Notes under the pieces: generated by a model
Database searches by the model: none
The model's input: the letters and a program-made list of their open reading frames with translations, nothing else
Told to the model about the DNA's origin: nothing
Assembly (NCBI GenBank): GCA_951828585.1
Contig: OX639991.1
Span: 1,706,576-1,770,575 of the forward strand
Direction: 5' to 3'
Source: Longimicrobiales bacterium
GTDB taxonomy: Bacteria > Gemmatimonadota > Gemmatimonadetes > Longimicrobiales > Gaopeijiaceae
DNA length: 64,000 nucleotides
Shown here: one piece after another, positions 51,385 to 62,857 of the stretch
How the letters are laid out: the number at the start of each line of letters is the position of its first letter
Numbering within the stretch: the stretch's first letter is position 1
Position numbers and translations under genes: made by a program

Positions 51385-52569
51385 TCAGTATAGCAGGTAC
51401 CGCTCCACCGACGCGTCGAAGGCCTCCAAATCGGCCTTCTCACCCTCCAGAATCTCGTCGGTGGCCACACCGTCCTGTACACCCTCACGCAGCCCCGAGT
51501 GCCCCCACAGGATGTCGATCGGGGGCAGGCTCTCTTCGTATTCGTAGGGGGGTTGCCGCCAGCCGAAGTCGTGCGGAGCCAGCGCGCGGGCCGCGACGAG
51601 GATCTCGACGGCGGTGCGGACCGGTTCGAAGGCGTGGGGGTCGGGTACGTGCAGCTGGGCGCCGCCACACAGCGTGCCGGCATGCTTCTGGAAGGTGGGT
51701 TCGAAGTGGCAGGGGCGGAGATGGACGCCGGGGAGGTGGGCGTCGGTGAGTCGGGTGGTCAGGGCCGTGGGGTCCAGCCAGGGGGCGCCGAAGAGTTCGA
51801 AGGGGCGGGTCGTGCCGCGTCCTTCGGAGAGGTTGGTGCCTTCGAGCAGCACCATGCCGGGGTAGACAACGCAGGAATGAGGGGTGGGGAGGTTGGGGCT
51901 GGGCATGACCCAGGGGAGACCGGTGTCGGGCCAGAGCCTGGAGCGCTCCCAGCCGTCGCATGGGATGACGGTGAGATCGCAGCCGATGCCGCGCTCCTCG
52001 TTGAGCCAGCGAGCCATCTCGCCGCAGGTGAGGCCGTGGCGGAGGGGGACCGGGTGCAGGCCGACGAAGGACTTATAGCCGGGTCGCAGCACGGGGCCCT
52101 CGCGCCGGGCCCCGCCGATGGGGTTGGGGCGGTCCAGAACGACGAAGCGGACGTTCGCCTCGGCGCAGGCTTCCATGGCGAGGGCCATGGTCCAGATGAA
52201 GGTGTAGACGCGCACGCCCACGTCCTGGAGATCGAACAGGAGGGCGTCGAGTCCGTCAAGCATTGTGGGGGTGGGCTTGCGGGTCTCGCCGTAGAGGGAG
52301 TGGACCGGGATGCCGGTGGCGGGATCCGAGTAGTGGTCGGACTCGATCATGTTGTCCTGCTTCTCGCCGCGGGCGCCGTGCTGGGGGCCGAAGAGGGCGC
52401 GGAGGTCGTAGCCGGCGTTGCCGATGGCGTCGGCGGCGTGGGTCAGGTCCGAGGTGACGGACGCGGGGTGCGCGATGAGGCCGAGGCGCTTGGTGCGCAG
52501 ATCTTCCGACTCGGCGGCTTCCCCGCTGACGAGGCGATCCAGGCCGGCGTGACTCACGGTCAGGGTCAA
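51385..52569 (-). CDS. DUF1343 protein, NamZ-like exo-beta-N-acetylmuramidase
   Basis: About 394 residues. RLGLIAHPASVTSDLTHAADAI, LFGPQHGARGEKQDNM, SLYGETRKPT, LLFDLQDVGVRVYTFIWTM and VLDRPNPIGG are the hallmark blocks of DUF1343, whose characterised member NamZ releases terminal N-acetylmuramic acid from peptidoglycan fragments. The start is probably TTG 52569, overlapping the amidohydrolase stop (TTGA), or GTG 52557. No signal peptide is visible with these starts, whereas many homologues are exported. It is coupled to the upstream amidohydrolase gene. Confidence 0.88.
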   Translation of the reverse strand: MTLTVSHAGLDRLVSGEAAESEDLRTKRLGLIAHPASVTSDLTHAADAIGNAGYDLRALFGPQHGARGEKQDNMIESDHYSDPATGIPVHSLYGETRKPTPTMLDGLDALLFDLQDVGVRVYTFIWTMALAMEACAEANVRFVVLDRPNPIGGARREGPVLRPGYKSFVGLHPVPLRHGLTCGEMARWLNEERGIGCDLTVIPCDGWERSRLWPDTGLPWVMPSPNLPTPHSCVVYPGMVLLEGTNLSEGRGTTRPFELFGAPWLDPTALTTRLTDAHLPGVHLRPCHFEPTFQKHAGTLCGGAQLHVPDPHAFEPVRTAVEILVAARALAPHDFGWRQPPYEYEESLPPIDILWGHSGLREGVQDGVATDEILEGEKADLEAFDASVERYLLY

Positions 52570-55500
52570 TTCCCCTCCGGCGGCCCCTCGCGCTGCCAGT
52601 AGAACGGCCCGGCGGTCACCTGCTGCGGCCACACCTGGTCGAGCGTGTCCCCGTCGTACAGGCGCCCGTTCATCATGACCTGCACGATCGCGTTGGAGTT
52701 GCGGATGTCGTCCAGCGGGTTCGCGTTGAGGATGACCAGGTCCGCGAGTTTGCCCACCTCGATCGAGCCCAGATCGCGGTCCAGCCCCAGCGAGTGCGCG
52801 CCAATGATCGTCGCCACCTGGAGCGCCTCATGTTCGGTCATGCCCCCCGCCTGCGTGGCCCACAGCTCCCAGTGATAGCCGAGCCCCTGCAACTGGCCGT
52901 GACTCCCGACCCCCGCCCTTCCCCCCGCCCGGATCACATCGCGCACGAACGCCGACACCAGGTCGAAGGTGTGCACTTCGGGATGGAACCACCCGGGCAC
53001 CCGGCGCGTCGCCTTGCCATGGATCTCTTCGACCGGGGTGAAACGGGCCAGCTTCTCGTCCCCCAGAACGTCCTCGGTCGCGTAGAAGTAGTTTTCCGCC
53101 CACGGGCCGCCGTAGGTGACCAGAATCGTCGGCGTATACGCCATCTTCGACTGCGCCACCAGTTCGACCATGTCGGCGTACATGGGGAAGCCGGGCATGT
53201 TGTGCTCGACGCCCGAGTAGCCGTCGATGGCCATGGTCATGTTGACCTTGGTGTCGAGGCCGCCCTCGGTGGTGGGCATGAGCCCCAGCTCGCGCGCGGC
53301 CTCGATGATCCACTGGCGCTGCTCGCGGTTGCCGGCGGCGTACATCTTGATGGTCTTGGTGTCGTAGTAGTCGCTGTAGCGGCGCAGGATGTTCCGGGCG
53401 TGGTCGAGATCCTTCACGTTCTCGGACGAGAAGACGCCGGGGCCGGTCGAGTAGATGCGGGGGGAGACGATCCGGCCGGCGCGGACCAGGTCCTCGTAGC
53501 TGACCACGTCGGTGGTGCCGGTCTGGGGGTCGCGCGTGGTGGTGACGCCGTAGGCCAGGTTGGCGGCGTAGGACCAGGGCTGGCTGCGCAGGATGTTGAT
53601 CTGGGCGCGCAGGTGGGCGTGCGTGTCGATGAAGCCGGGGACGACGGTCTTGCCGGAGAGGTCGACGGTGTCTGCGCCTTCGGGGACGGTGATGGTGCCG
53701 GTGGGGCCGACGGCGGAGATTCGGTTGTTCTCGATGAGGATGTCGCCCTGGTCGAGGACTTCGTCGCCTGCCATGGTGATGACGCGGGCGCCGGTCAGGA
53801 GCGCGGTCCCCTGGGGGATGTCGCGGGGGAAGTCGACCTCGATGCGGACCTCGGTGGGCCGGTAGCGGGCGTCTTCCTCGTCTTCATCCTGTTCCGCCGC
53901 CTCGGCTGCTTCGGCCTCCGCGCCCGCGGGCTCGTCCTCCTCCCCTCCCTCCTCCTCTTCGTCTTCTTCAGCCTCCTCGTCGCGGGCCGCCGCCTCGACC
54001 GAGTCCTCGAGGGCCTGCGCGTCATCCAGGTTGTAGACCAGGTGCGCGTTGCCGATGGTCCAGTGCACGGTGCGGCCGTCGTGTCCCCACGCGGGGAACT
54101 CGCCGCCCACCTCGGTGAGCTGGCGCGCCGGGAAGGACGCGCTCTCGGGGTTGCCGACGTTGATCGTGGGGGGATCGCCGCCCACGACCGGGACGGTGAC
54201 CGTGTAGAGGTGGTTCAGGACGCGGGCCAGCGCCTGGTCGCCTTGTGGGGCCATCATCACGAGCGAGGCGGTGGCGGGCGCGCTCGAACCGGGCGCTCCG
54301 GCACCCACGACGCGCACGTGCCGTTTGATGTCGGTGCCGTCCCAGCGGAACGAGACGAGGCCGTCGCCGAAAGCGTAGGCGTAGATCCGGTCGGGGTCTT
54401 GGGTGAAGTGGTGCGCGGAGTAGCGGGCGGGAGAGATCACGGTGGCGTCGCCGCCGTCGGAGGGGATCCAGACCAGGTCGTCGCCGCCGCCGGGGACGCC
54501 GCGGGTGAGGGCTTCGTCGTAGGCGCGGGCCGGGCCGCGGATCGCGACGATGCGTTCGCGGTCGGGGGACCAGATGGGGTTGTTGTAGAGGGCGGGGGCG
54601 GTGGTGAGGCGCTCGGGGTCGCCGCCGTCCGCGTCAACGCCGTAGATGTGGCCGCCCACATCGTCGCTCCAGGTGGTGTAGGCGATTCGTTCGCCGTCGG
54701 GCGACCATGCGGGCATGTGCTCGTTGACTTCGGCGTCGGTGAGGCGGGTGGGCGTCCCATCGGGCCATTGCATGACGTAGACGCGCGCCATCAGCGAGAA
54801 CGCGATCCGGTCGCCGCTCGGCGAAGGCACCGCGTCGCGGACCTGCTTGGCCACGAATGTCGGCGTGTCCTCGATCGGGTAGTCGAAGTCGACCTCGGGC
54901 CCGATGGCCATCTCAACGTCCACGCGGAACGGAATCGGCGTGGGCTCGGACCCGTCGACCGGGACCCGCCAGATCCCGCCGCCCCAGTACGCGATCACCT
55001 CGCGCGAATCGGGAGTGAATGACATGCCCGGATAGGCGTCGCGGGACGCGCGCGACTCCTGGTCGTCGCGCTGCACGGGGAAGACGAGCCACCGTTCGTC
55101 GCCCGACTCCAGGTCGCGGATGCGGAGCCCCGTTTCGGCCACGTGCCGGGAGCCGTAGACCAGCCAGCGGCCGTCGGGGCTCAGGACGGGACGGAAGGCG
55201 CCGCCGTAGCGGAAGGAGCGGGTCGTGGACTCGCCGGTTTCGCGATCGTAGACGGCGAGCTGGTATTGCCGCATGCCCGAGTTGTACTCCCAGGTGCCGC
55301 TGCGTTGCGCATACCAGATGTAGCGGTCGTCGTCGCCGAAGGCTGCGCCGGTGGTCCTCAGGTTCGCGGGCTCGTCGATCAACGGGATCCCCGAGCCGCC
55401 GTCCACGTGGTACATCCACAGCTTGCCCTGTCCGGGGCCCTGCCGGGTGGCGAGCACGTAGTTCCCGTCCGGGGTCCACACGGGGGACTGATAAGCGCTC

Positions 55501-55967
55501 GACTTGCCCCTGGTGAGCTGCACGGTGTCGCTCATGTCCAGCGAGATGATGTGGATGCCCTCGCCGCCGGTTCGGTCCGAGGTGAAGACGACGCGGGTGC
55601 CGTCCGGACTGAAACGCGGCTGGCCGTCAAAGGCCATGCCCTGGGTGAGGGGGGTCGCGGTGCCGCCGGTGATCGGCATGGTGTAGATGTCGCCGAGGAA
55701 GTCGAAGACAAGAGTCTGGCCGTCGGGGCTGACATCGACCGACATCCACGAGCCTTCGGTGAAGCTGGTGGAGATGGTGCGGCCGGGGGCGAGGGGGAGG
55801 CCTTCCTGGCGGGGGTCGGGGGTGTCGGGGGGTTCTTGGGGGAGGGTGGGGGAGGGGGTGGCGAGGAGAGTGGCCGTGGCGAGGGCTGTCAGCGCCACGC
55901 GAAAGCGAAGGTGGGCCTGGTGGGAAGTTCGCCGGGATGACCCGGTGTCCGGTTCGGTTGCCATCAT
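52566..55967 (-). CDS. Secreted amidohydrolase with N-terminal TolB-like beta-propeller (paralogue 2)
   Basis: 1133 residues from the ATG at 55967. The signal segment lies around ALTALATATLLATPSPTLPQ. PD40 repeats span about 60-600 (WMSVDVSPDGQTLVFDFLGD, PRFSPDGTRVVFTSD). A highly acidic hinge (about 640-690, runs of Glu and Asp) precedes the amidohydrolase domain with VPGFIDTHAHLRAQ, KMYAAGNREQR, GVEHNMPG and GSHGQLQGLGYHWE. It shares its design with 8605-11910. Its 5' end and upstream region are duplicated at 59571 as a decayed copy. It is probably cotranscribed with the NamZ-like gene. Confidence 0.9.
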   Translation of the reverse strand: MMATEPDTGSSRRTSHQAHLRFRVALTALATATLLATPSPTLPQEPPDTPDPRQEGLPLAPGRTISTSFTEGSWMSVDVSPDGQTLVFDFLGDIYTMPITGGTATPLTQGMAFDGQPRFSPDGTRVVFTSDRTGGEGIHIISLDMSDTVQLTRGKSSAYQSPVWTPDGNYVLATRQGPGQGKLWMYHVDGGSGIPLIDEPANLRTTGAAFGDDDRYIWYAQRSGTWEYNSGMRQYQLAVYDRETGESTTRSFRYGGAFRPVLSPDGRWLVYGSRHVAETGLRIRDLESGDERWLVFPVQRDDQESRASRDAYPGMSFTPDSREVIAYWGGGIWRVPVDGSEPTPIPFRVDVEMAIGPEVDFDYPIEDTPTFVAKQVRDAVPSPSGDRIAFSLMARVYVMQWPDGTPTRLTDAEVNEHMPAWSPDGERIAYTTWSDDVGGHIYGVDADGGDPERLTTAPALYNNPIWSPDRERIVAIRGPARAYDEALTRGVPGGGDDLVWIPSDGGDATVISPARYSAHHFTQDPDRIYAYAFGDGLVSFRWDGTDIKRHVRVVGAGAPGSSAPATASLVMMAPQGDQALARVLNHLYTVTVPVVGGDPPTINVGNPESASFPARQLTEVGGEFPAWGHDGRTVHWTIGNAHLVYNLDDAQALEDSVEAAARDEEAEEDEEEEGGEEDEPAGAEAEAAEAAEQDEDEEDARYRPTEVRIEVDFPRDIPQGTALLTGARVITMAGDEVLDQGDILIENNRISAVGPTGTITVPEGADTVDLSGKTVVPGFIDTHAHLRAQINILRSQPWSYAANLAYGVTTTRDPQTGTTDVVSYEDLVRAGRIVSPRIYSTGPGVFSSENVKDLDHARNILRRYSDYYDTKTIKMYAAGNREQRQWIIEAARELGLMPTTEGGLDTKVNMTMAIDGYSGVEHNMPGFPMYADMVELVAQSKMAYTPTILVTYGGPWAENYFYATEDVLGDEKLARFTPVEEIHGKATRRVPGWFHPEVHTFDLVSAFVRDVIRAGGRAGVGSHGQLQGLGYHWELWATQAGGMTEHEALQVATIIGAHSLGLDRDLGSIEVGKLADLVILNANPLDDIRNSNAIVQVMMNGRLYDGDTLDQVWPQQVTAGPFYWQREGPPEGN

Positions 55968-56060
55968 GGTCTTCGGTCCTTCTCGGTGATTGATCGGTGG
56001 GGATGAGAATGGCATGGCATCATAGCCCGGAACCGTCAGCCGGAGAAAGGCGGTGGGGCA

Positions 56061-56243
56061 GTGGATCGAAGTAAGTCATATGTCTTACATACCCTGAAGC
56101 TTCGCAAGCGCGACGCCGTGGTACCCGGCCAGGAATTCGACGTTGAGCGCCTTGGTCCGGGCGTCAACCGCCTGGCCCGCCGAGGAAAGCCGGAGAACAG
56201 CGGCCTGGTGGACTTGCTGCAGTCCTGTCCCGAAAACGACTAG
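56061..56243 (+). pseudogene. Decayed AbrB-type antitoxin (copy A)
   Basis: The frame LRKRDAVVPGQEFDVERLGPGVNRLAR, then KPENSGLVDLLQSCPEND and a stop, matches the intact antitoxin at 59999-60250 from its mid-region onward. The N-terminal strand (STKGQLVLPAE in the intact copy) is lost, and a premature stop removes the last 20 residues. Confidence 0.8.
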
Positions 56244-56249
56244 TTCGTA

Positions 56250-56411
56250 GTGGAGTGGCTGCAAGCTCACGAGCAGGATATCGTAGTGGACCCCGTTCGT
56301 TCTCGGCGAAATACAGCGCTTGACCGTGGCCTGGTCGTGGACACGCGCAACCTGCGGGGACTTCGAATCGGCGGCGTGGATATCGTGGACTCGTCGAGTG
56401 GAGTGGGGGGG
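56250..56411 (+). pseudogene. Decayed VapC toxin with internal deletion (copy A)
   Basis: VEWLQAHEQDIVVDPV matches residues about 23-38 of the intact toxin at 60247-60663, and RGLVVDTRNLRGLRIGGVDIVDSSSGVGG matches its C-terminus. About 70-75 residues between them are deleted, taking most of the PIN active site. Confidence 0.75.
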
Positions 56412-56466: not shown

Positions 56467-56858
56467 GGCTGTCATGGTGCTCGCGGGCTGACCCGGATGC
56501 GGGCCCATCGACCTGCCCCGCAGGAAAAGGGTGACACTGTGTCACCCTTATTCGATTGACGCGGCAGCTGTTCGGGCGGGCGTCGAGAAAAGCTCCAAAT
56601 TAGCCGAGCGGAGTTGGGGCAAAGAGTGTGTAAGCGTCGAATGGACGTGACCCGCTCGGTGTCGGTCAGGCAAACTGTTCAGTTCAGAACAAAATCGCTT
56701 CTTCTTCGTTGTGTGTGGCTCTAGTTGCGACGGTCGAACCGCGATGTACAGGCTTGCGAATTCCCATGACAATCGCTACTGTAAGGTTCCCGAGTTACGC
56801 AGCTCTGAACGTTAGAGCTTGTGACATGAGAGAATCTCAAAATGGGAAGGACAGTTCG
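56467..56858 (+). promoter_or_regulatory. Leader region of the fulvocin-like cassette with a candidate promoter
   Basis: No gene is seen here. The DNA is visibly lower in GC than its surroundings. TTGCGA (56753-56758) and TACTGT (56776-56781), 17 bases apart, form a plausible sigma-70-type promoter about 75 bases upstream of the first precursor gene. GGGTGACACTGTGTCACCC (about 56529-56547) is a near-perfect palindrome that could be a terminator or an operator. Confidence 0.35.
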
Positions 56859-57500
56859 ATGACCAAACTGCTCGCTATCGTCATCTTGGCAGGAACGGCG
56901 ACTTGGTCGGCACCCCAACTCCATATCGGTGCCTCCGCAGATGTTCCGCGCGATGTCCCCGCGTGCGAGTTAGCGGATCAATGGGTGGCCGCCAACCCCA
57001 ACAAGCTGCCGACCACGTTGGAGGCGTTCGTTGCACACTCCATCGCGGTTCGGCGGGCCATCTACGACGCACTTGATGCGGAAACCCGCGTCTCACTGTG
57101 GCGGGAGCATCTCGGTATCGTGATTCATGAGGCGACGTCGTTGACACAACGTCAATTCCTGAATGGCGTGACGCGTGACCTGCCCAACCTGCTAGACCCC
57201 GAGATCACGCCTCCCGGGGAACTTGAGGCACTTTGGGAATTCGCTACTGCAATTCTTGGAGTAGATTTCGCTCGTCGTGCGCTTTTGGATTTGGGGCGGA
57301 CCGAGGTCGCGCCGGAGAACGACAGGAGCGCTCCACAGGTATTGTGTTCGTGCTCGGTGGAACGGAAGGACTGCCCGCAAGGTGCCGGTGACGCCAGCTG
57401 TCTCGAGGGTGCCTGCGCCGAAAGGCGTAGAGGGTGTTGGATACTTGATCGGTACAAGTGCGATGGCTTGTGCTGGCTTGATGACCCCCCGGTAACCTAA
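56859..57500 (+). CDS. Fulvocin C-like cysteine-rich precursor (copy 1)
   Basis: 213 residues from the ATG at 56859 (ribosome site GGGAAGGA). A signal peptide (MTKLLAIVILAGTATWSAP) leads to a roughly 130-residue helical region (CELADQWVAANPNKLPTTLEAF, SLWREHLGIVIHEATS). It ends in a 50-residue domain with eight cysteines beginning LCSCSVERKDCPQG and ending YKCDGLCW. The C-x-C-x6-C opening matches, from memory, that of fulvocin C, an eight-cysteine myxobacterial bacteriocin. I infer a secreted bacteriocin-like precursor with a leader or chaperone-like N-terminal domain. No processing or immunity gene is recognised nearby. Confidence 0.7.
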   Translation: MTKLLAIVILAGTATWSAPQLHIGASADVPRDVPACELADQWVAANPNKLPTTLEAFVAHSIAVRRAIYDALDAETRVSLWREHLGIVIHEATSLTQRQFLNGVTRDLPNLLDPEITPPGELEALWEFATAILGVDFARRALLDLGRTEVAPENDRSAPQVLCSCSVERKDCPQGAGDASCLEGACAERRRGCWILDRYKCDGLCWLDDPPVT

Positions 57501-57523
57501 GATGGACTAGCTATGAAAGCGCA

Positions 57524-58558
57524 ATGGAAGGAAGCATCTTTGCTATGAGCGTGATTCTGCACTCTGCCACTGCGATGCAGTTATGTGTCGGTTGCACCTT
57601 GGAGTTTCAACCCCAGGACACCTTGGGTACCGCAGAGGATCCTGTGGGCGTCGGCGTGTTCGCAGATGTCGTGAGGATTGGAGATGAAGGATATCTTGTG
57701 AGTTCAGACGCGGCAGACGGGGTGGTTATCGTCTACGATACAGAGGGGAATTACCAGCGAGAGCTCAACCGCGTGGGTGACGGCCCGGGAGAGTTCAATA
57801 TGTCTCCGAGGTTTGCCAGGAACGGTAGCGGGATTCTTATGCATGAGTGGCGCAGTCCCAGATTGCATCTTTGGTCGGATGACCTCACGTTCGTCAAGGC
57901 ATTCCAGATGCCCATCGGGCAGGGAGGGGCGATCCACTCGGACCCGCTGACCGGGGGCTGGCTGGTCAGCTACCGCTCGGGAGCCGAAGACGCAGGCATC
58001 TTGCTGCTTGACGCGAACGGAGACGTAATTCGTACGATGAGTCCCGATGTCAAGTCCCGCAGCTTGAGCTATTTCACAGCGGGCGTGATCCGCGACGCGA
58101 GGGGCAGAATATGGATCTCATCGATGGCGGGGATGGTGGACGTGTTTGACAAGCATCTTAATCTCATAGGCTCATTGGAGTTGCCATTCCCCTGGATGGA
58201 CAAGTGGAAGCCGGAACTCCGCGCTGGGCTTCCGCCGGTCGTTGTCATGGATATGCGCCTCGCTCCAGATAGTTCAGGTGTGTGGGTCTACGCGTTTGTG
58301 CCTGTCGTTGACCCGGATGAGATTGACTTTATGCCGGATCCGATGCCTCCGCCGGACGAGCTGGCCGATACCTACATCTCTTGGGTTAGCTTGGAGGCGA
58401 ATGGCCTTGTCATCAAAGGTACGGATCGGCTTGACGAGCTGATTCGCCCTATGGACGGGGAATCCGCTTTCGATTTGGTTGAAACGCCCGATGGGAATCG
58501 GCGGGTTCGCGTTGGGCGGTTGCTCTTGCGGAAGACGAGTGGCGGAGAGTTGGAATGA
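57524..58558 (+). CDS. 6-bladed beta-propeller protein between the two fulvocin-like genes
   Basis: 344 residues. The N-terminus MEGSIFAMSVILHSATAMQLCVGC is a weak signal or lipoprotein segment (Cys in CVGC); a start at 57545 is possible. Blades include VVIVYDTEGNYQRELNRVGDGPGEFN with a GDGPGEF turn and ILLLDANGDVIRTMSPDV. It starts 23 bases after the first precursor and is embedded between two paralogous precursors in lower-GC DNA, unlike other propellers in the window. Roles as a receptor, carrier or immunity partner of the precursors are speculative. Confidence 0.8.
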   Translation: MEGSIFAMSVILHSATAMQLCVGCTLEFQPQDTLGTAEDPVGVGVFADVVRIGDEGYLVSSDAADGVVIVYDTEGNYQRELNRVGDGPGEFNMSPRFARNGSGILMHEWRSPRLHLWSDDLTFVKAFQMPIGQGGAIHSDPLTGGWLVSYRSGAEDAGILLLDANGDVIRTMSPDVKSRSLSYFTAGVIRDARGRIWISSMAGMVDVFDKHLNLIGSLELPFPWMDKWKPELRAGLPPVVVMDMRLAPDSSGVWVYAFVPVVDPDEIDFMPDPMPPPDELADTYISWVSLEANGLVIKGTDRLDELIRPMDGESAFDLVETPDGNRRVRVGRLLLRKTSGGELE

Positions 58559-58758
58559 AGAACACACGCACGTATGATTTCACCAATCGCCACTCAGCCC
58601 GCAAGCCAACAGGCCGTCTTAATGACCTTACTGAGAGTCATGTCGGACGGCTCCAATAGCCTCATCGCCTCAGCCGGAAGGGGCGCTCGATTCGCGGGCG
58701 CCTGTTCACGGGTGGGCGAATAGCCAACCTCAGCGCCCGTTCACGGGAGGGACAGCGC

Positions 58759-59385
58759 ATGAACAAGCTACTCAGCATTCTCGTTCTCACAGGCATAGTC
58801 ACGTTGACGGTGCCTCAACCCAACTCTTCGGACGCTCTGGGAGACGTGCCGGAGTGTGTGTTGGCGGAGCAATGGGTCGCAGCCAACCGCGACGCGCTTC
58901 CGACGACACTTGATGCTTTCCTGGAGCACTCCGTCGTCTTTCGGCATGTCATCTTCGACGCGCTTGATGGGGCCGCGCGCGCTTCGCTCTGGCGGGAACA
59001 CCTCGCTGTTGTGGTCGAAGAAGTGACGTCGCCAAGGCAACGAGCGTTCATCGAGATGGTATCGCGCCAACTCGATGGCGACCTTATGGACACGGGTCCC
59101 CAATCTAGAATCGAGGCACTGGAGGAGGAAGCGAGGGCTGTCCTCGGCGACGCATTGACTCGCCGTGCGATTTATGTCCTGGGTCCGGAAGCGGACCCAA
59201 CTATGGTCAACGCAGAGGAACAGCAAGGGCCGCTGTGCTATTGCAGGGTCAAGAAGGGTTTCGGGGACTGCGAAGGTGCCTATCGGTGCTCCAGATCCGC
59301 GGTGTTCCCGTGCGTGAAAGTCAGGGATTGTGGAGCGTTCGGGTGGTGGAGATGTGATGGGTTATGCAGGAACATTGTCAACTGA
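58759..59385 (+). CDS. Fulvocin C-like cysteine-rich precursor (copy 2)
   Basis: 208 residues with a signal peptide (MNKLLSILVLTGIVTLTVPQ). It is clearly paralogous to copy 1: CVLAEQWVAANRDALPTTLDAF and SLWREHLAVVVEEVTS. It has an eight-cysteine C-terminus from LCYCRVKKGFGDCEG to WWRCDGLCR. The CxC opening and the terminal C-D-G-L-C are kept, while spacing in the middle differs from copy 1. The ribosome site GGGAGGGAC resembles that of copy 1. An inverted repeat (59373-59408) overlaps its stop. The upstream 200 bases (58559-58758) hold no gene but contain two GTTCACGGG repeats. Confidence 0.7.
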   Translation: MNKLLSILVLTGIVTLTVPQPNSSDALGDVPECVLAEQWVAANRDALPTTLDAFLEHSVVFRHVIFDALDGAARASLWREHLAVVVEEVTSPRQRAFIEMVSRQLDGDLMDTGPQSRIEALEEEARAVLGDALTRRAIYVLGPEADPTMVNAEEQQGPLCYCRVKKGFGDCEGAYRCSRSAVFPCVKVRDCGAFGWWRCDGLCRNIVN

Positions 59386-59408
59386 ATTGTCCAGGGCCAT
59401 TGACAATG
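59373..59408. terminator. Inverted repeat at the end of fulvocin-like copy 2
   Basis: CATTGTCAA (59373-59381) and TTGACAATG (59400-59408), a 9-bp stem with an 18-base loop spanning the stop codon. No T-run follows, so termination is only a possibility. Confidence 0.4.
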
Positions 59409-59570
59409 CCAGGTTTTTGGCCATCCAGACGTCCGGGTCTGGAAGGTGGGGAAGCTGGCCTGCGGAGGGGAGTGGGCCCAATCGGTCTTGGTCCTGCGCT
59501 TGGTCATCGTGGTCTGGCCACGGCCGGCCAGAGGTACGGTGGCCATTAACACGTCACAGGGTACCGAGCC

Positions 59571-59873
59571 GCCGGTGATCGGCATGGTGTAGAGGTCGCC
59601 GAGGAGTCGAAGACAAGAGTCTGGCCGTCCGGGCTGACGTCGACCGACATCCATGAGCCTTCGGTGAAGCTGGTGGAGATGGTGCGGTCGGGGGCGAGTG
59701 GAAGGGCTTTCCTGGCGGGGATCTGGGGTGGTGTCGGGGGGTTCTTGGGGGAGGAGGGGGAGGGGGTGGCGAGGAGAGCGGCCGTGGCGAAGGGCTGTCA
59801 GCGCCACGCGAAAGCGAAGGTGGGCTTGGTGGGGTCGCCGGGATGACCCGGTGTCCGGTTCGGTTGCCATCAT
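59571..59873 (-). pseudogene. Truncated 5' copy of the amidohydrolase gene (copy B)
   Basis: The sequence follows 55667-55967 closely, from MMATEPDTGSSRR through signal-peptide coding to YTMPITGG, but has several single-base losses that break the frame. It ends abruptly at about 59571. The upstream 100 bases are also shared. Only the first tenth of the gene is present. Confidence 0.85.
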
Positions 59874-59998
59874 GGTTTTCGTCCTTCGCGGTGATCGATC
59901 GGTGGGGATGAGAATGGCATGGCATCATAGGCGGGAACCGTCAGCCGGAGAAAGGCGGTGGCTTTGCCAACATGGGGTAGGTTATCTATCTTACCTTT

Positions 59999-60250
59999 AT
60001 GAAAAGCGTCATCTCCACGAAAGGACAGCTGGTCCTGCCTGCCGAGCTTCGCCGCCGTGACGGCGTTTTGCCCGGCCAGGAATTCGACGTTGAGCGACTT
60101 GGTCCGGGCGTCTATCGCCTGGCCCGCGCGGGCGAGCCGGAGAACAGCGGCCTGGTGGACTGGCTGCTGGCCTGTCCCGAAAAGGACTGGTTCGTGCCGA
60201 TTGCCTCGGAGTCCACCGCATCGTTGAAGCCCCGGATTGGCGGTCAGTGA
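59999..60250 (+). CDS. vapB: AbrB/SpoVT-type antitoxin
   Basis: 83 residues. MKSVISTKGQLVLPAELRRRDGVLPGQEFDVERLGPGVYRLAR is the complete swapped-hairpin DNA-binding domain, and PENSGLVDWLLACPEKDWFVP is the toxin-binding tail. The stop overlaps the toxin GTG start (GTGA, 60247-60250). An AT-rich sequence (TATCTATCTTACCTTT) immediately upstream is a likely promoter. It is the intact counterpart of the remnant at 56061-56243. Confidence 0.88.
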   Translation: MKSVISTKGQLVLPAELRRRDGVLPGQEFDVERLGPGVYRLARAGEPENSGLVDWLLACPEKDWFVPIASESTASLKPRIGGQ

Positions 60251-60663
60251 GATACCTCGTCGACACCAACGTCCTTTCGGAGACAACGAAGGCGTGCCCC
60301 GATCCGGGGGTGATCGAGTGGCTGAGGGATCATGAGGAACACATCTGCGTGAACCCCGTGGTCCTCGGGGAAATCCGGTTCGGGATCCGGCTGCTGGGGC
60401 CGGGACGGAGCCGTGACGCCCTGGACGTCTGGTTCACCGAAGTCGTGCGCCGAATCCGATGCGTGCCGATCGACATGAAGACCGGCCTCCGCTGGGCGGA
60501 ACTGCTGGTGGCTCTCCGCTCGCGCGGAAGGTCCATGCCAGTCAAGGACAGTCTGATCGCGGCGAGCGGGCTGGCCCATGGCCTCGTCGTGGTGACCCGC
60601 AACCGGAGGGACTTTGAAGCGGCGGGGGTGGAGATCGTAGACCCGTTCTCGAGGGGTGGGTAG
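60247..60663 (+). CDS. vapC: VapC-type PIN-domain toxin
   Basis: 138 residues with a GTG start coupled to the antitoxin. MRYLVDTNVLSETTKACPDPGVIEWL, VNPVVLGEIRFGIRLL, MPVKDSLIAASGLAHGLVVVTRNRRDFEAAGVEIVDPF give the PIN-domain acidic residues D6, E and D, D. It resembles FitB-type VapC proteins paired with AbrB-type antitoxins. It is the intact counterpart of the deleted copy at 56250-56411. Confidence 0.9.
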   Translation: MRYLVDTNVLSETTKACPDPGVIEWLRDHEEHICVNPVVLGEIRFGIRLLGPGRSRDALDVWFTEVVRRIRCVPIDMKTGLRWAELLVALRSRGRSMPVKDSLIAASGLAHGLVVVTRNRRDFEAAGVEIVDPFSRGG

Positions 60664-60834: not shown

Positions 60835-61910
60835 TCAGCGCACCGAGGGCAGCATCCCCGGGCACGGTTCACCGCTCACACGGCGCAACGGATGCATCGA
60901 CACCCGGTAGGCGGAGTTTCCGGTGACATTGTACACGGTCCGGCCATCCTTCTCGGTCACTTCGAAGGGGTTATGGAGCACCAGCACGCTGTCCGCGTGG
61001 ATGCGAATCGGCGTATGCTGACCCCGTGTCGTGTTGCGTATCAGTGCGTGGCAGCCGGTATCGGGGTTGATGATGACACCGTGGGTTGCCCAGTCGTGGC
61101 CCAGAAGCACGATGTTCTCCAGATCGTCGAAGGACATCCGCGCCCGCTCGCTCCAATGGGGGCAGGGTTCTCCGTTTCTCGTGCACCCGGTGCGGTCCGT
61201 GGCGCCCTTGACGGGAACCGCCACCGTTCCCTCCTCGCCGCTTCGGTGGTACACGAACACCGACGCTGGCCCCTCTTCGCTGGGCATCGCGACATAGGCC
61301 GCACCATCCAGACAGGCGATCCTGGTGTCAAACCGTCTCATGACGATTGCACGGACATCGTCGATCGTTCCGGCTACGACGCCACGGCTCTTTCCCTGGC
61401 TCGGCCCGAAGGCCTGGTCCATTCCGGCGTCGGGCCCACGCCTGATCACTCCCCCCTCGGACGGGACGGTGGGTGCCCCGCCGAAGTTGCACACTTCCCT
61501 GCCCAGGTTTGATTCCGGGCGCCAGGAGTGGATGGGCATGCCCTGGGGATCGTACTCCACGACCCTCATCATGCCGGAAACGTAGAGACCGCCACCGGGA
61601 GCGAGGTCGATGCCGGACCGGCCCTGCGGGAACTCGTACGGCCCCTCGCCCTCCGGGGTCCGAATCGTCCGGAGCCACTCCCCCGTCTCCAGAGAAAAGG
61701 CCATGATCCCTTCCGGCTCCTCCTTGTCGTCAACGTAGAGGATATTCCGTTCCCAGTCGACGGCCACCAGCCGGAATAGATGGCGCGCCACTCGTCATCG
61801 ACAATGGTCCGGCCGGTGTCGAAGTCGATCTCGAGTATCTGCTGTGCATTGGCCGCGGGGGGCGGCAGGATGGCGAGCGCGGCGATCCACAGGAGGGTGG
61901 GCTTTGGCAT
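60835..61910 (-). pseudogene. 6-bladed beta-propeller gene with a frameshift
   Basis: The minus-strand start at 61910 (ribosome site GGAAGAAA) gives a signal peptide MPKPTLLWIAALAILPPPAANAQ and then ILEIDFDTGRTIVDDEWR. Sense then moves to the other frame (HLFRLVAVDWERNILYVDD) and runs to 60835. The shift lies in GTGGCGCGCCATC near 61795 and is explained by one extra GC dinucleotide. Blades such as MRVVEYDPQGMPIHSWRPE follow. The main frame opens at a GTG (61791), so an unexported product could be made. It is either a real slippage mutation or an assembly error. Confidence 0.75.
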
Positions 61911-62035
61911 GAGGTTTCTTCCAGGCGTGTGGATGGTTGGCCGCGCACCGGGGCGTGGGTGCTTCCGCAATGGCAAGGTGCTACTGGTCCGTTGGATAGC
62001 CCGCGGAGAAAAAGCGGTTGTCCCGCCACCCCGCC

Positions 62036-62857
62036 CTACCCCTCCTCCGGAAACAGCCTCCCAATCGTCCCATCCAACGCCTCGGCCACCCGACCGCACC
62101 GCCCCTCCCCCACCCCGTACGCCGACAGCCACACGCCCATCTTCCACCGCTCCCCGCTCCCCTCCATCTCCACGTGCAGCACGCCGTCGTTCAGCGATTC
62201 CACCATGCCTGCGAACGACCACGGCCGATCCGCGAACACGACGGTCCCCGAGAGCACCGTCCCACCGTCGAGGACGAAGTGAAATGGGTTGCCCTCCGCG
62301 AGCGAACGCCCGTCCTCCCCATCCCCTCCGACCCCCTCCCCCCCGAAAAACCGCTCCCACACCTCCTCGCGGGTACCCGTCACCCACGGCCGCGCACTGA
62401 TCACGCGCCGCGGGACACCCGGATGCCGCTCCACCGCGTGCTTCAGGTTCCAGAGGAAGACGCGCCACCCGTTCGTCATCATGCGGAAGTGATTGTCGAA
62501 GTCCGGCGTGGCCGGCAGGCCGGTGTTGACGAGGTGGAACCGGGTCTTGCCGTTGGCGGTGCTCAGGTGGTAGTCCACGGTGAGCGCGGTTCCCGCATCG
62601 ACGGCATCTACATCGGAAAGGTCCACCAGCCGCAGGTGCTCACCGGGCTTCCAGACGGTGATCCTGCTCGGCCAGTCCGCACCCTCGGCCCACGCCACGC
62701 TGACCGTCCCTCCCTCCCCCTCCTCGACCGAGGCGAACGGCGCGAACCAGCGCGTGATCCCGCCGCCGGTGGCGATCGCGTCCCACACGGCGTCAACCGG
62801 GGCGGCGACCTCGATCGAGAGCTTGATGTTGCGCGTGTCCGGCGAACCGGACGTCAA
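62036..62857 (-). CDS. SRPBCC (AHSA1-like) domain protein
   Basis: 273 residues, cytoplasmic. IKLSIEVAAPVDAVWDAIATGGGITRWFAP is the classic first strand-helix of the START/Bet v1-like fold, and PWSFAGMVESLNDGVLHVEMEG belongs to the second half. The length suggests about one and a half domains. These proteins bind small hydrophobic ligands or act as Hsp90 co-chaperone-like proteins; no specific role can be given. The start overlaps the stop of the upstream coiled-coil gene (62854-62857, ATGA). Confidence 0.85.
   Translation of the reverse strand: MTSGSPDTRNIKLSIEVAAPVDAVWDAIATGGGITRWFAPFASVEEGEGGTVSVAWAEGADWPSRITVWKPGEHLRLVDLSDVDAVDAGTALTVDYHLSTANGKTRFHLVNTGLPATPDFDNHFRMMTNGWRVFLWNLKHAVERHPGVPRRVISARPWVTGTREEVWERFFGGEGVGGDGEDGRSLAEGNPFHFVLDGGTVLSGTVVFADRPWSFAGMVESLNDGVLHVEMEGSGERWKMGVWLSAYGVGEGRCGRVAEALDGTIGRLFPEEG

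Follow-up and report, generated by a model that had tools for sequence, protein, structure and literature searches.

Fulvocin C is a bacteriocin of Myxococcus fulvus, 45 residues long with four disulfides, and Bacteroidales encode NVEALA peptides in pairs with six-bladed propellers. The primary structure of fulvocin C was described by Tsai and Hirsch (1981, as cited in PMC8708641), and a partial beta-propeller fold is known for the immunity protein Tsi1 (PMC3391265). In the literature searched, we found no paper on fulvocin genes or on their pairing with a propeller, no description of genes for fulvocin C immunity or export, no report of a propeller or an ABC pair linked to the fulvocin C family, and no publication on NVEALA-propeller pairs.

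Here we analyzed a stretch of 64,000 nucleotides (the window) from a Longimicrobiales bacterium whose genome is one contig of 4.47 Mb. The window carries a cassette that is undescribed as a module among the literature searched. Judging from its genes and their relatives, the cassette most likely encodes an antibacterial peptide with a self-protection partner.

Precursor architecture and core variation

Three co-directional open reading frames make up the cassette, in the order precursor 1, propeller, precursor 2 (Table 1). The initial annotation, made from the sequence alone, had described the precursors as exported paralogues of 213 and 208 residues with eight-cysteine cores, and the reading frames, profile scores and cysteine spacing agree with it. 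Both proteins exceed the curated cut-off (35 bits) of the NCBIfam model NF033852, 'bacteriocin fulvocin C-related', with 56.7 bits for precursor 1 and 62.3 bits for precursor 2, and their matches span nearly the whole model (positions 1-150 and 2-150, respectively). Alignments, cysteine spacing and a helical model give the same architecture for both, in which a hydrophobic, Sec-like N-terminus is followed first by a helical domain and then by the core at the C-terminus. Exactly eight cysteines lie within the last 49-51 residues, with a CxC opening and a CDGLC end; core length in the family is about 46-57 residues. The AlphaFold2 model of precursor 2 places helices with confidence at residues 32-139 (block-mean pLDDT 78-98 over residues 31-140), and the fold of its core is ill-defined in the model (block-mean pLDDT about 30-55). 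A fold search with this model returned no PDB match below E 1.

Table 1. Features of the cassette and its flanks (window coordinates).
Feature	Position	Strand	Basis
Precursor 1, 213 aa, with helical domain between signal-like N-terminus and eight-cysteine core	56859..57500	+	NF033852 match, family alignment
Precursor 1 eight-cysteine core, CSC...CDGLC	57345..57497	+	Cysteine spacing
Beta-propeller protein (337 aa from family start), N-terminal QLCVGC	57545..58558	+	Sub-threshold PF17170, clade profile
Precursor 2, 208 aa, with helical domain between signal-like N-terminus and eight-cysteine core	58759..59385	+	NF033852 match
Precursor 2 helical domain, residues 32-140	58852..59178	+	AlphaFold2 model
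Precursor 2 eight-cysteine core, CYC...CDGLC	59236..59382	+	Cysteine spacing
Left copy of flanking direct duplication: amidohydrolase 5' end and degraded vapB	55662..56248		Repeat search, blastn
vapC remnant of left copy, with internal deletion	56253..56394	+	Two short blastn matches
Right copy of flanking duplication: amidohydrolase 5' fragment into vapB	59568..60195		Repeat search, blastn
Intact vapB (59999-60250) and vapC (60247-60663) at right copy	59999..60663	+	Family models
Propeller-amidohydrolase	52566..56015	-	Pfam PD40 and Amidohydro_1

Genus-wide, the cores are less conserved than the helical domains in most precursor pairs. In the precursor pair of another genome of the genus (G020), the first 429 nt are identical, as are 96 of the 100 positions just upstream, and the cores share 46% identity; their contig is only 5.5 kb long and contains a run of Ns, which limits the reading of an identical leader joined to different cores. 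This pattern resembles a conserved carrier whose core has been exchanged.

The propeller protein

The propeller gene placed between the precursors by the initial annotation is real. Its reading frame opens at 57524, and the start used here was set by alignment of 19 members of its clade. The window protein reaches 18.1 bits against Pfam PF17170 (DUF5128), under the gathering cut-off of 22.9, and the profile of its clade matches six-bladed NHL propellers of known structure in the PDB (E 1.1e-8). Purifying selection acts on the clade propellers (dN/dS 0.18-0.35). An N-terminal QLCxGC is invariant in the 19 aligned members, and its two cysteines are the only ones in most of them. We rejected CxxC as a feature of this clade only: a few other propellers of the host genome also carry one near the N-terminus, and for this reason it may be a structural disulfide. 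The location of the protein is unsure, as its N-terminus is shorter than a textbook signal peptide would require. About 145 PF17170-like propeller stretches occur in the 4.47 Mb of the host genome, a striking expansion.

A second propeller-like gene, which appears frameshifted, adjoins the cassette (60835-61980, minus strand). The start with its signal peptide (MPKPTLLW...) is in a different frame, inside the ORF 61569-62468, and an intact-looking homologue is found in G020 (L151, 2259-3305). The latter belongs to an array (L151, contig C243, 400-3305) in which small exported cysteine-containing proteins of 85 and 110 aa alternate with propellers, beside the ABC permease family described below. 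With this array, the genus has a second style of combining peptides with propellers.

Relatives without the full core

A genome scan with precursor 2 as a single-protein query gave no match. Scanning with the precursor alignment recovered relatives in three Gemmatimonadota MAGs and in actinobacteria. One further homologue (L025, in G099) lies at a contig end, beside an export operon of OEP/HlyD/MacB type.

Some relatives differ in their domains. Gemmatirosa and a relative encode the helical domain alone, with no cysteine core (L032, 7372-7773; L033, 7854-8309). The actinobacterial proteins have an extra N-terminal domain with an invariant CxxC at a helix start and an invariant PT; its profile and its predicted fold both match thioredoxins weakly (E about 0.01-0.02). 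In Nocardiopsis (L085-L088) this thioredoxin-like domain is combined with a shared, degenerate four-cysteine core, and the copies have similar gene neighborhoods. None of the actinobacterial relatives examined has a neighboring propeller of this clade. The initial annotation of a fulvocin C-like bacteriocin cassette is borne out in part, by family membership, by the precursor-like leader and core architecture and by lateral mobility, but some family members look non-bacteriocin. Because coreless and degenerate-core members exist, the family name alone is no proof of a bacteriocin, and the annotation 'bacteriocin fulvocin C-related' also covers proteins without a bacteriocin core. We saw no cysteine domain forming part of a larger enzyme, which the initial annotation had listed as evidence against a bacteriocin; the actinobacterial thioredoxin-like fusion sits at the far N-terminus.

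These relatives bear on the main alternative, which we regard as rather unlikely: that the propeller, instead of conferring immunity, is a maturation partner whose CxxC holds or exchanges disulfides with the core, a task that the fused thioredoxin-like domain would perform in the actinobacterial relatives. The invariant QLCxGC would suit such a role, as would a CPPC in the propeller of a phage contig and the thioredoxin-like domain of the actinobacterial homologues with its conserved PT. However, both thioredoxin matches are weak, CxxC recurs in a few other propellers of the genome, and for most clade propellers there is no precursor in the vicinity. The same relatives also weigh against the antibacterial reading, since the helical domain has uses outside bacteriocins (L032, L033, L085-L088) and the actinobacterial proteins lack the clade propeller as a neighbor.

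Linkage and distribution in the genus and phylum

We surveyed 23 genomes of the genus and 395 genomes of the phylum. The NF033852 family occurs in 4 and 13 of them, respectively, so we rejected a housekeeping family, the outcome that the initial annotation had named as telling against a bacteriocin system. Within the genus, 12 of the 23 genomes have the propeller clade; across the 395 phylum genomes it occurs in just one more family, in one genome. All five genus precursor loci adjoin a propeller of this single clade. As each precursor-bearing genus genome has only 1-4 such propellers, the chance of finding one within 1 kb is about 0.0006-0.003 per locus, and from the complete linkage and this low chance we rejected coincidental neighbors.

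The layout recurs as well. In the window, in the genus genome G021 and in a phage contig, propeller and precursor share a strand and are separated by 10-44 nt. The initial annotation had suggested searching other genomes for the precursor-propeller-precursor order, and we found it again in G020 (L023/L078), where the set also encloses an ABC ATPase gene with a frameshift. A third precursor of the host genome, at 4.36 Mb, is followed by a propeller of 53% identity, an ABC ATPase and a permease. The propeller, which the initial annotation had offered as a candidate accessory protein, thus emerges as a real partner, paired with the precursor in four genomes and a phage contig. As related bacteria and a bacterial virus have the same pairing, we regard the cassette as a real functional unit.

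Propellers also occur by themselves. At 16 of 21 genus propeller places there is no intact precursor, a count that is biased because the loci were collected with the propeller. On the propeller tree, precursor presence changes at least five times.

A second alternative can be weighed against these patterns. The helical-plus-cysteine protein and the propeller could form a laterally spread, non-toxic envelope pair, acting as ligand and receptor or in adhesion. The coreless and degenerate-core relatives would be expected of such a pair, and both the abundance of PF17170 stretches in the host genome and the G020 array of small exported cysteine-containing proteins with propellers are in line with it. 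We nevertheless consider it unlikely, as the patchy distribution, the diversification of cores on an identical leader and the carriage by a phage suit an antagonistic peptide better.

A Mu-like phage carries the pair

Searching viral sequences with the propeller profile identified one contig, IMGVR_UViG_3300022223_000010. Viral scans with precursor queries gave only this contig, already reached via the propeller; precursor 2 had no match in the phage records searched. The phage precursor scores 93.9 bits against NF033852, its propeller starts 10 nt later, and the motif of this propeller reads CPPC instead of CAGC. On one side of the pair are genes for a MuA-like transposase and a MuB-like protein, and on the other side are endolysin, terminase, portal, head-morphogenesis and head-protease genes. 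Because Mu-type and head genes surround it, the precursor-propeller pair travels on a Mu-like transposable phage. As in the window, the pair is lower in GC (0.58-0.60) than its surroundings (0.66).

It is possible, and we suggest it tentatively, that the cassette belongs to a phage-mobilized antibacterial system. Its secreted, disulfide-rich peptide, with a core open to swapping, would be matched by a propeller that confers cognate immunity or sequesters the peptide, in some cases with the support of an ABC-2-type transporter.

Genomic setting of the window copy

The initial annotation had described the segment as lower in GC, and it is: 0.56-0.60 in the cassette (0.58-0.60 for its three genes) and 0.65-0.71 outside. 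Beyond what the initial annotation describes, the cassette lies between two directly oriented copies of a local duplication that are 83% identical over 636 bp (blastn). The vapBC pair is intact in the right copy and degraded in the left. The right vapC has a PIN domain (E 1.6e-11), and the right vapB has a sub-threshold match to AbrB/MazE-like antitoxins. On the left, the vapB remnant covers 56058-56249 (64%, tblastn with vapB), and the vapC remnant has two short matches (72% and 78%, blastn) to the intact vapC, at about 60316-60374 and 60570-60646. Orthologues of the amidohydrolase (52-54%, tblastn) stand beside propellers at three other genus loci (L064, L069, L073), so the window site is a genomic address used repeatedly. 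We looked for an empty site that would date the insertion and found none.

The initial annotation had found no modification enzyme, dedicated exporter or known immunity gene. This holds for the window segment. No modification enzyme that would class the precursors as RiPPs was recognized beside them among the ORFs at 52-62 kb, and there is no exporter among the cassette ORFs, nor a peptidase-containing ABC exporter of the double-glycine class II type. The claim does not extend beyond the window, because sister loci carry an ABC ATPase with a multi-TM permease; having neither exporter nor immunity gene is thus particular to the window copy.

ABC transporter genes and broken precursors

The ABC ATPase and permease stand beside the propeller at six genus loci (L022, L026, L063, L064, L065 and L066) and at the locus of the other family (L146). 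The permease is of ABC-2 type, with four to six predicted TM segments. For the ATPase, the best NCBIfam scores are with CydC, DrrA and lantibiotic-protection models, all far under cut-off (E 1e-30 for the lantibiotic-protection model). G020 retains a frameshifted ATPase and no permease, and the window has neither gene, nor any remnant of the related transporter pair (tblastn). We rejected the idea that the ABC pair belongs to the module exclusively, as it has homes of its own: the permease occurs at 24 places in the genus, and only six adjoin a clade propeller, which also counts against the antibacterial reading. At L150, L154, L157 and L158 the pair lies beside an arginase-like gene, a fixed home in several genus genomes.

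Two precursors are broken. At L146 the gene breaks off some 35 codons from its start, and past this point there appears to be a transposase-like ORF. At L063, near a contig end, homology stops after about 20 codons. Beside these, the permease is open at both loci and the ATPase is open at L063. L146 is not clean evidence for retention of the propeller because its propeller has one frameshift. Loss of the precursor with the partner kept would be predicted by immunity, and equally by a partner with independent work; the orphan propellers likewise fit a function independent of the precursor equally well.

A third alternative is that the window copy is itself a decaying remnant, acquired with a transporter that was then lost, its flanks duplicated and its genes non-functional here. 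The absent ABC genes, the 83% flank duplication and the long branch of the window propeller (0.69, median 0.18) fit such decay. We judge it very unlikely, however, as all three reading frames are open with GC3 above GC2 in each, both cores keep their eight cysteines, and the propeller keeps its motif.

Proposed function

We favor, at close to even chances, a mobile two-component module in which one or more exported precursors with a variable core are combined with a dedicated beta-propeller, supplying an antibacterial peptide plus protection from it. The bacteriocin-plus-protection part we would put at about one half. In the proposed mechanism, the precursor would exit the cytoplasm via its Sec-type signal, and cleavage before the CxC motif would free the core. 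The core would fold with four disulfides and, like fulvocin C in published reports, act as a released antibacterial peptide. The propeller would probably protect the producer, either binding the peptide or removing it, and in the sister loci the ABC-2-type transporter may assist. The window copy would be a variant with two precursors and no transporter, beside vapBC between local duplications.

The wider fulvocin C family thereby gains a genetic partner that is both recurrent and specific, in a mobile setting that includes a Mu-like phage. We propose that immunity to a disulfide-rich peptide, or its maturation, may depend on a beta-propeller.

Comparison with known systems

The size and the eight cysteines of the window cores agree with fulvocin C, and both precursors belong to the NF033852 family by its cut-off. 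By profile, the window propeller shares its fold class with six-bladed NHL propellers of the PF17170 type; its clade differs from them in its invariant N-terminal QLCxGC and in being linked to the precursor at every genus locus where the latter is intact. ABC transporters for bacteriocin self-protection, of LanFEG and DrrA type, resemble the sister loci, with a separate ATPase and a multi-TM permease beside the propeller. However, the sister-locus ATPase falls far below the cut-offs of their models, and the pair, which the window lacks, has further sites in the genomes away from the propeller. Tse1/Tsi1 offers a precedent for a beta-propeller immunity protein, being a bicistronic toxin and immunity protein, the latter with a partial propeller fold; it differs in that Tse1 hydrolyzes peptidoglycan and is injected through type VI secretion. 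The NVEALA pairs of Bacteroidales are, by description, similar to the window in placing a small exported cysteine-containing protein beside a propeller.
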